Assembly: GCF_008831285.2 (NCBI RefSeq)
Contig: NC_045148.1
Span: 8,623,001-8,687,000 of the forward strand
Direction: 5' to 3'
DNA length: 64,000 nt
Origin: Nymphaea colorata
Taxonomy: Eukaryota; Streptophyta; Magnoliopsida; Nymphaeales; Nymphaeaceae
Shown here: positions 1-56,367 of the stretch, piece by piece
Layout: the number at the start of each line of letters is the position of its first letter
Numbering within the stretch: position 1 is the first letter of the stretch
The notes under the pieces: generated by a model
Databases searched by the model: none
The model's input: only the letters and a program-made list of their open reading frames with translations
Told to the model about the DNA's origin: nothing
Position numbers and translations under genes: made by a program

Positions 1-397
1 CGAGGTTGAGTTCGATACATTCACGACGACGAAGGCGACCGACCTCGCGCAGCCGCTCGTCGATGCGCAGATCCCGTTTCGAATCCACATCGTGAAGGAT
101 CACGACATGAAAGAGAGGCTTTGCCTCGAGGTCGAGCGCCTTTGCCTCAGTGCGGTTATTATGGGAAGCAGGGGCATCGGTGCCTCCAGGCGGAACAGCA
201 AGGGCCGGCTAGGCAGCGTCAGCGACTACTGCGTCCACCACTGCGTGTGCCCCGTGGTCGTCGTGCGCTATCCAGACGAAAAGGAAGGTGGAGTGGCTGC
301 TGGAGACGATAACGCACTGGCGAGGGAGACGGAGCTGCATCCGGTGCCGGAGGAGGAGCAGGAATACCATTCCGCTTCCGAGGAGCAGAAAGGTTAG
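1..397 (+). CDS. Universal stress protein, PHOS32/PHOS34 type (3' part only)
   Basis: This is the last part of a universal stress protein gene, cut off by the left window edge. The reading frame is open from base 2 and ends at TAG 395-397, giving about 131 residues. Seen: the segment HIVKDHDMKERLCLEVERL, then SAVIMGSRG, then GSVSDYCVHHCVCPVVVVRY. These are the typical C-terminal half of a plant USP domain, with a glycine-rich nucleotide-binding loop (GSRG...GS). The tail is acidic (EEEQEYHSASEEQKG). The family consists of small soluble alpha/beta proteins; the Arabidopsis members PHOS32 and PHOS34 are phosphorylated on elicitor treatment. The residues before 92 belong to the same frame, so the internal ATG at 92 is not the start. 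The stop overlaps a possible splice donor (AAAG/GTTAGG at 390-398), so a short extra exon downstream cannot be ruled out; no convincing one was found. Confidence 0.88.
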   Translation, partial: EVEFDTFTTTKATDLAQPLVDAQIPFRIHIVKDHDMKERLCLEVERLCLSAVIMGSRGIGASRRNSKGRLGSVSDYCVHHCVCPVVVVRYPDEKEGGVAAGDDNALARETELHPVPEEEQEYHSASEEQKG

Positions 398-2900
398 GTT
401 TTTTTAGTCTTCTTGTGTCTGACATTTTGTTAATTTCCATTTATCGAACTGAATGCGCTTGTGGAGAAATTAAAATGTAAGAGAGCTTAGGTTTTGTTTG
501 TCAATGCAACTGCTTCCTCTGTTTCTTTCTTTTTGGTGAGCGTTATCCTGCCTTGGTTCTTCTGTTGCATTGTCCATGCAGGACCATCTGAACGCAAAAA
601 TGTTGAATTTCTTCATAAGTTTATGTGTGTGTGTGCTCTTCTTTCTGTTTTGATTCATTAGCACACTAGAGTTTGAAGTTTGGTTTCTTCTCCTAGGGGT
701 GTCGATGATCTGTTTCCGCTGATCATGGACGAGTTTATTTGATTGTGTCCCTTTGATTGACAAGATTGGGATAAAATGCAAGGCTGGGTGCCTTCCAGAT
801 TGTATAATGTACATCTTCATCCAATTAATCCTCACAAGTTGTGCTCCTGAACGGATCACATCGTGTCCTCGTATGAAGGCATTTCATTATAAAATGTCTT
901 GTTCTCTTACGGAATTTCTTGGGTAATTTCTGAACTCTGTTACAGATACTGGCGATGTTACGAAGATATTGCAACTTTTTTGCAATAGAATTTCTTGGGT
1001 AATTTCTGAACTCTGTTACAGATACTGGCGATGTTACGAAGATATTGCAACTTTTTTGCAACAATTTACAAAAGTGAATGGTGTTACCGTGTTACGTATT
1101 TTCCCAGTTGTTGTGATTCTATCTGATATTGCACTAGTTATATATCTTGTTCTTCAATGCTTCCTATTTCTGTAACACATTACCTTGATATTTTAAGTGA
1201 GCTATATTCCACCACGAAACTTTAGTTTCCAATTGTCCAATTACTTTTTTCTATATGATTCCTTGAACCACAACTCTCTCGATTTGCCATGTGTTTCAGA
1301 ACATGACCCTGAGTTGGTGGCGGTCCAGTCGTTATATATTTTCCTATGCGGATATGTAGGAGGAGTATTCTCTGATCCTACAATGGGCAAGAGTTATCAA
1401 TGTGACTGACAGGACCTGAAACCATTGCCTGAAGGAATGACTGCTAAATTTGTAGGCTAGGCTTTAAATTAAGTGGAAAAGAGTGAAGCTTCTGGTTCAT
1501 AATTGTATCTTAGACCAGGCTATCTCTTGGAAGCACGACAACTATTACGAGAAATTGTCAAGTGGATTTAAGATTTTTCTTTTTAATTTCTCAATGAAGA
1601 AAACATACTCTGCATCTTTTGCTGAACATTTGGAATTCAATTTTTCTATGATATATTTTTAACCATTTTAATTTATGACTATTTATGCGGAAGAGAGTCG
1701 AGCATTTTTGCCTTTTTCTTCTAGTTGTACATTGACTTCATCGTTACCGTTTTTTGTTGCCCTGCCTATAGGAAATGCATGTCTGAGATTGGCCATTTTT
1801 TTTTAAACAAGCAAACTTACAAACAAACTATTGATCAAATAAATAAATAATGTACCTGTCTCCATGTGCATGCATCTCTAAGTAAACAGGAAATTAGGAA
1901 AATAGCCTGTTTCTTCAACATGATTGCATAGTTGTGTTTTGTGGGTCCACAATTAATGTAGTTATAGTGTTTAACTGTTTATGACTCTAGGATTTCCTTT
2001 TATGTTGAATCTGAATTCATCTTCAAACAAAAGACATGTCATTAGAAACTCGGTAATGAATTATTGTCATGGTAAAAGAGTATTGGGGCCATGTGACATC
2101 TATGCCTTTTATATGACATTTTTATTTGTTTTAATTTATTATGATGGATCATGAATGTCCAGCATATATGCATACAGCTGAATAATGATTTCATTTTCAG
2201 TTCATTGGCTTCATTTTTTAGTAAGATAGCTGCACTATTATGCAATCGGACTTGTTCACCTGCTCCTAAGGAATGTAATAAATTGCAAGATGAATCAATG
2301 TTCTGAGCACTAAACATTCCTAAGCAGCTAGTGTGATGGTATAACCAATGATTATTGTTCTGAATGCGGAAGGTCATGGCTTTCCTGTACTTGCATTTTA
2401 AACTTTTAGTACATTGGATTGCAGTTACACTCCTAATTAACATTCCTGATCTAATTGCTTGATCTTACAAGTGTTGGTTATGAGCTTATGCACTATGGGA
2501 ACACTAAAATATTTGTTACAAGGTTGTAGTCGAGCAATGAAGTGCACGGAATTTTCTGTGGCCAGAGATTTAGTTGGCTTTTTTAATTTACAGAATAAAA
2601 TAGCTGAGATGCTGTAATTCAGGCAGCCTATAGGTGTCAAATCAAAACGTTTGTCTGGATAGTGGATTGGAAGCTTATGATTCCAAGGTGTAAATGTATA
2701 CGTGTTGTTTGATTGAAAATTTGAAACTGCTTGTATTTTGGATTCTTGTCTTTCTCTATACCAAAAGATTCTTGTAATGTTCTGAAGATAGGTTTGCACT
2801 AGTAACGCAAATTTTGGCTTATTAAGTTGCTACAACTGAATACTGTTCTTATGCAAATTTATCCTGTATGGTATTAAAAGATACCTTCAGGCTTCGACTA
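398..2900. other. Spacer downstream of the USP gene
   Basis: AT-rich sequence that presumably begins with the 3' UTR of the stress-protein gene. Only short, non-conserved open frames are present. The one clear structure is the 76-bp tandem duplication at 912-1063. A possible acceptor at about 1297 (TTTCAG before AACATGACCC) opens a frame that could extend the USP gene, but its product resembles nothing I know. Confidence 0.5.
912..1063. repeat. 76-bp tandem duplication, two near-identical copies
   Basis: Copy 1 is at 912-987 and copy 2 at 988-1063. Each begins GAATTTCTTGGG and runs to CTTTTTTGCAA. They differ only at the last few bases (ATA against CAA). Such near-identity suggests a recent replication-slippage or unequal-exchange event. 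Confidence 0.93.
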
Positions 2901-56200: not shown

Positions 56201-56367
56201 TTATTCAAATGCTGAACAGTGAAGCAGCAAACTTCTGCGAGCCGCAGATGCCGGCCTACTACTCCAGGAGAAGACTTTTGGACAACTCTTCTTCATCTTC
56301 TGACGCCTATCCGATCAGAAGCCGAACTGTGAATGGTCTTACCGTCTCTGAAGTGAATCCTCGATGA
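50268..56367 (+). CDS. G-type lectin S-receptor-like Ser/Thr kinase 2 (seven exons, 834 aa)
   Basis: Exons: 50268-51519, 53901-54011, 54406-54629, 54813-55023, 55231-55468, 55787-55937, 56050-56367. All junctions are GT-AG and the total is 2505 nt. Exons 2, 4 and 6 have exactly the same length as in S-RLK1 (111, 211, 151 nt) and all intron phases agree, so the two are tandem duplicates. Product: signal peptide to about residue 24 (ending NCHA), bulb-lectin domain ([25 protein letters not shown]), S-locus domain ([10 protein letters not shown]), EGF-like [16 protein letters not shown]/apple ([17 protein letters not shown]), TM about 426-447, kinase. Kinase residues: GEGGFG near 520-525, Lys541, HRD 636-638, DFG 656-658, SPEYALEG. 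All catalytic residues are present. Intron 1 (2.4 kb) carries a 108-bp (TA)n tract; the 3' tail is Ser-rich. Confidence 0.93.
52050..52071. repeat. (AT)n microsatellite in S-RLK2 intron 1
   Basis: Eleven AT units. Confidence 0.93.
53282..53389. repeat. 108-bp (AT)n tract in S-RLK2 intron 1
   Basis: AT/TA dinucleotides with one GA interruption near 53349-53350. It lies 510 bp before the transmembrane exon. Confidence 0.95.
53749..53766. repeat. Short (AT)n tract in S-RLK2 intron 1
   Basis: Nine AT units, 135 bp before exon 2. Confidence 0.9.
55600..55740. repeat. Dispersed repeat copy inside S-RLK2 intron 5
   Basis: The stretch with GAGTCCGACCTTAAATTT, then TTTGAAATCCATGGTG and AACAAACACACCCTAAA resembles 17000-17065 (AGTCCAACCTTAAATC, TTTGAAATCACGGTG, AACAAACACAACCTTAAA). 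This suggests a shared short transposon-like repeat; boundaries are unclear. Confidence 0.45.

Follow-up and report, generated by a model that had tools for sequence, protein, structure and literature searches.

A PHOS, BBX and S-domain receptor kinase neighbourhood in Nymphaea colorata, probably kept by descent

SD-1 receptor kinases, among which is the Brassica self-incompatibility receptor, are dispersed, and their phylogenetic ordering is difficult. PMC3616866 describes the family as angiosperm-specific, with an age of about 140 million years, and deep nodes are weak in the phylogeny of G-LecRK/S-domain kinases (PMC5889549). In Arabidopsis, two such kinases, At4g27290 and At4g27300 (PMC5889549), are followed by BBX28 (At4g27310; PMC8650552) and PHOS34 (At4g27320; PMC12561244), while BBX29 and PHOS32 are found at At5g54470 (PMC8650552) and At5g54430 (PMC12561244), respectively. 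These identifiers had been named in a sequence-only reading of the locus described here and agree with the published tables, the first four being consecutive locus numbers. In melon, CmBBX10 is collinear with both At4g27310 and At5g54470 according to MCScanX, and the one melon-rice BBX pair reported in the same study involves another gene, so that this comparison lends the block no support in grasses (PMC12430197). The open-access literature searched yielded no earlier report of a PHOS/BBX/S-RLK block, and no joint mention of At4g27310 and At4g27320 was found in the literature search. As a positional anchor, two slower neighbour genes would afford an independent handle on S-RLK orthology and on the place of origin of the family.

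Gene content and order in the window

The window, i.e. the whole stretch of 64,000 nucleotides of N. colorata DNA analysed here, lies on C11 (NC_045148.1, positions 8,623,001 to 8,687,000). From its letters, a neighbourhood of a PHOS32/34-type USP, a BBX28/29-like gene and two tandem S-receptor kinases (S-RLK1 and S-RLK2) had been claimed, and this is borne out by Pfam domains and kinase exons. Profile searches were applied to eight open frames of the window, with Usp, zf-B_box, B_lectin, S_locus_glycop and PAN_2 all scoring above their cut-offs, and the kinase exons of both S-RLKs were located by tblastn using an approximate kinase sequence as probe and by their reading frames. The order thus obtained is USP (+), one-B-box gene (-), S-RLK1 (+), S-RLK2 (+), with the following features (window positions):

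1..397, + strand: 3' part of the PHOS32/34-type USP, to the in-frame stop (Pfam Usp in 2-394, E 2e-12)
10516..10756, + strand: possible USP terminal exon and 3' UTR, suggested by three collinear conserved pieces past an acceptor-like site
23080..23310, - strand, boundaries approximate: BBX exon 2 (open frame; match to C1)
23866..24417, - strand, lower end approximate: BBX28/29-like exon 1, encoding a single B-box and an acidic tract with ENQVVPW after it (Pfam zf-B_box E 3e-6; frame 23719-24483)
38138..39748, + strand: S-RLK1 exon 1, open frame with signal region, B_lectin, S_locus_glycop and PAN_2 (Pfam)
41917..41976, + strand: S-RLK1 transmembrane segment on a putative exon (hydrophobicity scan)
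42516-42644, 43003-43212, 43438-43677, 43905-44054 and 44265-44588, + strand: S-RLK1 kinase exons (tblastn, frames)
50178..51560, + strand: S-RLK2 exon 1, open frame with B_lectin, S_locus_glycop and PAN_2 (Pfam)
54513..56364, + strand: S-RLK2 kinase exons with a DUF3403-like tail at the end (tblastn, frames)
58932..59759, + strand: methyltransferase exon, PrmA-type and possibly PrmC/HemK-like, a neighbour not counted as part of the block (Pfam PrmA E 1e-5)

The USP is cut by the left edge of the window; its open frame spans C11:8622537-8623394, and the gene starts at about C11:8622.7 kb. It matches an approximate AtPHOS32 sequence at 65% over 181 aa. A motif SPRSPR can be read directly in the USP sequence and may be a kinase site of the kind expected as N-terminal SP sites in PHOS-type proteins. 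A predicted splice model would make 10516..10756 a possible terminal exon of this gene: the three pieces (blastn E 4e-11, 0.002 and 0.005) have counterparts at about 33338.56-33338.81 kb on C1 with their spacing preserved. The nearby ORF 11067-11456 has no Pfam match and no protein match in the searched C1 stretch at E 1e-6. Two transposon traces were encountered further along, one Copia-like (about 13668-13994) and the other LINE-like (about 28659-28835), both named by reading the letters.

By Pfam, the frame of BBX exon 1 holds a single B-box and no CCT match, and the protein matches BBX28 better than BBX31, both compared as approximate sequences. Exon 2 contains a 122-nt match to the C1 copy (23186-23307, E 5e-11). 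Both S-RLK1 and S-RLK2 possess the SD-1-type ectodomain (B_lectin, S_locus_glycop and PAN_2) above cut-off. A putative transmembrane exon was found for S-RLK1 and none for S-RLK2 in the hydrophobicity scan, so that S-RLK2 may be incomplete; its DUF3403-like tail scores 21.6 bits, under the cut-off of 28.9. Transposons had also been proposed to have inflated the block to more than 50 kb. This was not demonstrated: an ungapped search for repeats of at least 90 nt detected no LTR-like pair in the window; the repeats returned were AT microsatellites, short tandem repeats and the mutual match of S-RLK1 and S-RLK2.

The second copy on C1 and its age

The order PHOS (+)/BBX (-)/S-RLK is more than chance, as it recurs on C1 (block at C1:33.33-33.61 Mb). 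There, the PHOS copy (+) lies at 33331502-33332182 with 79.5% identity to the window USP over 219 aa, followed by the BBX copy (-) at 33366011-33366760 (66.5% over 191 aa, some read-through past the splice site included) and by S-RLKs from 33381041 onwards. To the right of BBX, the first three S-RLK pieces are on the + strand and later ones on the - strand, and a large array on C1 stands against only two S-RLKs on C11. The C1 S-RLK located at 33606 kb (+) pairs first with S-RLK2 (support 0.84), S-RLK1 joining next (0.99); identities are 46-49%.

For the two anchor pairs between C11 and C1, dS amounts to 0.84 and 0.73 by NG86 and to 0.74 and 0.70 by LWL85, where the value for the second pair includes a short read-through beyond the exon. 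The NG86 values are near the peak of the water-lily whole-genome duplication, which is given as about 0.9 (PMC7015852), and we infer that the two copies arose by this event. Alternatively, the C1 copy could stem from segmental duplication or from faulty assembly, which we regard as improbable. In favour of this, the methyltransferase next to the C11 block had no counterpart in the C1 stretch searched, neither as a tblastn match in C1:33302001-33442000 nor among open frames up to 33462000. Yet with dS of 0.70-0.84 the C1 copy is neither artefact nor recent, and the intergenic DNA of the two copies is almost unalignable; a segmental duplication that is equally old would fit these values. A match between C11 8613-8616 kb and C1 33315-33318 kb was rejected as synteny, because it consists of two Copia-type elements, as read from the letters.

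Descent, chance and shared regulation

The block is, in all probability, an ancestral microsynteny of a PHOS-type USP, a BBX28/29 gene and S-domain receptor kinases that was duplicated by whole-genome duplication (C11 and C1) and kept by descent, with orthology at the sequence level resting on approximate sequences and motifs. On this reading, it would have been present before the N. colorata lineage split from that of Arabidopsis and tomato, and a whole-genome duplication in the N. colorata lineage would then have produced the copies on C11 and C1. The anchors USP and BBX would have stayed in place and evolved slowly, with the adjoining S-RLKs turning over through tandem birth and death; retention of the block would have been passive rather than selected. 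By published locus numbers, the same neighbours recur in other angiosperms, with all three families in Arabidopsis and BBX plus S-RLK in tomato, where no USP locus was found in the literature search. Points against this reading are the S-RLK-free chromosome 5 copy of Arabidopsis, the four tomato one-B-box genes without a G-lectin gene inside 10 loci, and the methyltransferase beside S-RLK2 with no counterpart in the C1 stretch searched. Of the sequence-only reading, ancestral linkage is supported by the Arabidopsis and tomato loci and the C1 copy; its suggestion of shared regulation finds hardly any support, and transposon inflation was not demonstrated.

An independent origin of the neighbourhood in different lineages, with S-RLKs numerous enough to land near many genes by chance, is very unlikely. 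S-RLK families are indeed large, as illustrated by the 90 distinct G-lectin loci of tomato, against which BBX linkage was assessed at a cut-off of 10 loci. Within this distance of a G-lectin gene lie 3 of the 31 tomato BBX genes, which for the whole family is merely moderately unlikely (p about 0.016). However, all three belong to the seven one-B-box genes (no CCT): the closest G-lectin gene is 1 locus away from SlBBX31, 3 from SlBBX26 and 10 from SlBBX29, and the other four lie farther than 10 loci from any; for this class p is about 1e-4, with class and cut-off both picked after the numbers had been seen. The class is given as eight genes in the text and seven in the table of PMC8287887, and seven were used, with the loci of SlBBX28 and SlBBX23 assigned from PMC5069294. 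Independent assembly is further contradicted by the consecutive locus numbers of the Arabidopsis block genes and by the distribution of S_locus_glycop domains in N. colorata. Genome-wide (407.8 Mb), 40 matches score above the Pfam cut-off, and the 13 strong domains among them are found at two places only, the C11 block and its C1 duplicate, both adjoining a PHOS(+)/BBX(-) pair. The remaining 27 matches are weak and partial, two being fragments within the C1 array and 25 lying elsewhere.

Equally slim are the chances that selection keeps the block together through shared regulation of BBX, USP and S-RLK as a stress- and light-responsive domain, even if the literature associates USPs with stress, BBX28 with light, and both At4g27290 and At4g27300 with cold and with osmotic stress. 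USP and BBX point towards each other over about 23 kb, a distance that shrinks to about 12 kb should the putative USP 3' exon be genuine, and BBX and S-RLK1 point away from each other over about 14 kb; a shared promoter is therefore unlikely. A weak 40-nt match (82.5%, E 1.6e-4) does occur in the BBX-S-RLK interval of both copies, at differing distances from the genes. With BBX exon 2 and the putative 3' exon of the USP set aside, it is the only match in corresponding intervals, and a shared regulatory element is not supported. Otherwise, the comparison of the two copies for conserved sequence returned these exon-like pieces, one simple repeat and a single match that pairs intervals which do not correspond. 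Moreover, the chromosome 5 copy of Arabidopsis has kept USP and BBX but no S-RLKs (of the 49 listed G-lectin genes, none lies near the At5g54 pair).

A possible old home of SD-1 kinases and comparison with known systems

In addition to descent from an ancestral block, we propose that this neighbourhood may long have been home to the SD-1 kinases. More tentatively, and with considerable doubt, the PHOS-BBX block could be the founding locus of this angiosperm-specific family. Brassica SRK, ARKs and LORE would have dispersed from it later, while in the early-diverging N. colorata, where all 13 strong S_locus domains lie in the block or its duplicate, the family would never have left. The C1 array would still hold mosaic forms, with a single ectodomain type attached in some to an intronless SD-2-like kinase and in others to a multi-exon SD-1 kinase, and these could record the origin of SD-1.

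Like Brassica SRK, an SD-1 kinase, the window S-RLKs combine B_lectin, S_locus_glycop and PAN_2 with a multi-exon kinase. Among solved relatives, the S-RLK2 ectodomain matches Brassica SRK8 (E 5e-55) and SRK9 (E 1e-50) best. With 190 bits it is more distant from SRK8 than the ectodomain encoded at 33400 kb in the C1 array, which scores 282 bits. The tomato SlBBX31, SlBBX26 and SlBBX29 loci resemble the window in that a one-B-box gene lies near G-lectin genes, but differ from it in that several S-RLK clusters are found elsewhere. In Arabidopsis, At4g27290-At4g27320 comprises the same three families as the window, with two S-domain kinases beside BBX28 and PHOS34 beyond it, judging by locus numbers, and the USP-BBX linkage of the window is seen again in PHOS32 and BBX29, four locus numbers apart.

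Gene content of the block and its copy on C1

The gene content proposed by the sequence-only reading, i.e. a PHOS32/34-type universal stress protein gene (USP, here PHOS), a BBX28/29-like gene with one B-box (BBX) and two tandem S-domain receptor kinase genes (S-RLK1 and S-RLK2), was borne out by Pfam domains in a scan of eight open frames of the window, together with kinase exons downstream of each S-domain exon.

Features of the window (all Pfam domains named are over cut-off)
2-394 (+), Usp domain of PHOS
23719-24483 (-), zf-B_box domain of BBX
38138-39748 (+), B_lectin, S_locus_glycop and PAN_2 domains of S-RLK1
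50178-51560 (+), B_lectin, S_locus_glycop and PAN_2 domains of S-RLK2
58932-59759 (+), methyltransferase exon directly after S-RLK2

S-RLK1 and S-RLK2 are 43% identical in their ectodomains and, over the four kinase exons that were aligned, 69% identical. For the S-RLK2 ectodomain, Brassica SRK8 and SRK9 are the best solved relatives. A transmembrane exon is evident in S-RLK1, and a search for that of S-RLK2 found none. Two overlapping plus-strand frames are also open at 11067-11456, with no Pfam match in the frame scanned.

In the searched assembly (407,766,735 bases, 783 contigs; the window spans C11:8623001-8687000), the USP query matched four places: the window itself, C1:33331787-33332182 (+, 78% identity), and C2 and C9, where matches are weaker, partial and each interrupted by a stop. 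One of 17 B-box matches lies in the window and one at C1:33366491-33366622 (-). Strong B-box matches also occur on small contigs (C326, C730, C375, C673, C646), possibly foreign DNA, with a stop inside the match in four of the five. Open frames of C1:33302001-33442000 were compared with the window plus 40 kb around it (120 of 137 matches listed, by C11 position), and the order on C1 is PHOS (+), BBX (-), then S-RLKs.

S-RLK genes of the C1 copy
33381041-33385865 (+), gene A, exon 1 short
near 33388 kb (+), fragment
33390594-33394694 (+), gene B
33400975-33395269 (-), gene C
33441165-33433853 (-), gene D, kinase exon holds a stop
near 33444 and 33455 kb (-), two further kinases

Two putative LysM-receptor-like frames, judged by eye (C1:33449710-33450537 and 33458210-33459070, both -), alternate with these kinases, a pattern suggestive of duplication of a two-gene unit.

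Synonymous divergence between the copies is 0.84 (NG86) or 0.74 (LWL85) for PHOS (219 codons) and 0.73 or 0.70, respectively, for the BBX exon, where the 191 codons compared run somewhat past the splice site. These values agree with the paralogue Ks peak near 0.9 of the lineage-specific whole-genome duplication (WGD) in N. colorata, whose published 409 Mb assembly has 14 pseudo-chromosomes that take in 770 of its 804 scaffolds (PMC7015852). We regard it as very probable that an ancestral PHOS/BBX/S-RLK block was duplicated by WGD onto C11 and C1 and kept by descent. That the C1 copy is instead a segmental duplication or an assembly artefact appears improbable; in its favour, tblastn at E 1e-5 over C1:33302001-33442000 did not find the methyltransferase exon, and C1 open frames to 33462000 held no match to it either. 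Close to the C1 block, a DRMBL gene and an LRR gene likewise have no C11 counterpart among the matches listed. Hence, the conservation shown concerns PHOS, BBX and the S-RLKs, not every neighbour.

S-domain genes in the genome and in the C1 array

A genome-wide S_locus_glycop profile search (54 candidates scored; counts are lower bounds) gave at least 40 matches over the Pfam cut-off of 24 bits. Thirteen of the 40 form a strong class (E 1.5e-19 or better; profile positions 1-110 covered in 12, 26-110 in one), two being the window genes and 11 lying at C1:33.309-33.606 Mb; the next match has E 1.2e-10. Two weaker matches are fragments within the C1 array, and the remaining 25 (E 1e-10 to 1e-3, 27.7 to 50.1 bits), mostly partial (one on C8 covers 1-109 at E 9e-7), are taken as putative other G-lectin kinase classes. 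Ten of these 25 cluster at C12:22374320-22556315 (E 1e-10 to 6e-5) and are probably another such class. Since strong S_locus domains are confined to the PHOS-BBX block and its duplicate, the block is a candidate home of the SD-1 family, the multi-exon kinase class including Brassica SRK, although loss elsewhere in the lineage would give the same picture.

A 12-gene ectodomain tree places the C1 gene at 33606 kb (+) together with S-RLK2 (support 0.84; 49% identity), then with S-RLK1 (0.99; 46%), so that the far end of the array keeps a relative of the window S-RLKs. Left of PHOS on C1 lie two intronless S-domain kinase genes:

33307306-33309738 (-), intronless S-domain kinase gene
33321162-33323618 (-), intronless S-domain kinase gene

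Their ectodomains share 51-58% identity with those of the C1 genes at 33564, 33572, 33579, 33586 and 33598 kb, and 48-49% with that of gene C. The gene C kinase, however, is 64% identical to that of B and only 34-35% to those of the intronless genes; hence, one array carries two kinase types on one ectodomain type. Within C1:33302001-33607100, a stretch sampled in part, these mosaics comprise the intronless kinase in two genes and the multi-exon SD-1 kinase in gene C. By comparison with relatives, the intronless kinase is putatively of SD-2 type. The gene C ectodomain is closer to SRK8 than that of S-RLK2 (282 vs 190 bits).

SD-1 has been described as angiosperm-specific and about 140 million years old, and almost all SRLKs were traced to one fusion, in a survey whose five genomes (moss, spikemoss, rice, Arabidopsis, poplar) include no early-diverging angiosperm (PMC3616866). 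That the block is the founding locus of SD-1, its C1 mosaic forms possibly recording the origin of the class, is a tentative idea which we hold to be rather less probable than its converse.

Constraint and retention

The anchor genes PHOS and BBX are constrained (dN 0.12 vs dS 0.84 for the PHOS pair), and the S-RLKs next to them undergo duplication, inversion and decay. USP and BBX are convergent across about 23 kb, or about 12 kb if a predicted USP 3' exon is real; BBX and S-RLK1 are divergent across about 14 kb. Comparison of C11 and C1 intergenic DNA (blastn, E 1e-3) gave five matches.

Intergenic C11-C1 matches
1, BBX exon 2
2, about 10 kb after PHOS; with two smaller collinear pieces, fits a terminal USP exon
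3, simple repeat
4, joins non-corresponding intervals
5, 40 nt, BBX to S-RLK interval in both copies

The conserved pieces at 10516-10756, about 10 kb past the USP stop, follow an acceptor-like site, and this segment may be a terminal USP exon beyond a roughly 10 kb intron. Shared regulation, as suggested earlier for the neighbourhood, finds little sign here, match 5 lying at unequal distances in the two copies. Passive retention of the block is the simplest account.

The neighbourhood in other angiosperms

In tomato, 31 BBX genes (PMC5069294, PMC8287887, PMC8650552) were compared with 90 distinct G-lectin loci by published locus number. Three of the 31 lie within 10 loci of a G-lectin gene, all three belonging to the seven tabulated with one B-box and no CCT (PMC8287887). 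By circular shifts, p is about 0.016 over all 31 BBX genes and about 1e-4 within the one-B-box class, with class and 10-locus cut-off picked post hoc, after the data were seen. The chromosome index limits used in these shifts are assumed values. Melon CmBBX10 is reported as collinear with both At4g27310 and At5g54470, and the one melon-rice BBX pair given there involves another gene (PMC12430197).

The Arabidopsis identifiers given in the sequence-only reading match the published locus numbers: At4g27290 and At4g27300 are listed G-LecRKs of clade A1c (PMC5889549), At4g27310 is BBX28 and At5g54470 BBX29 (PMC8650552), and At4g27320 is PHOS34 and At5g54430 PHOS32 (PMC12561244). The 49 listed G-lectin genes include no member near the At5g54 pair. 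At4g27290-At4g27320, by these published numbers, places two G-LecRKs, BBX28 and PHOS34 consecutively, the same families as in the water-lily block.
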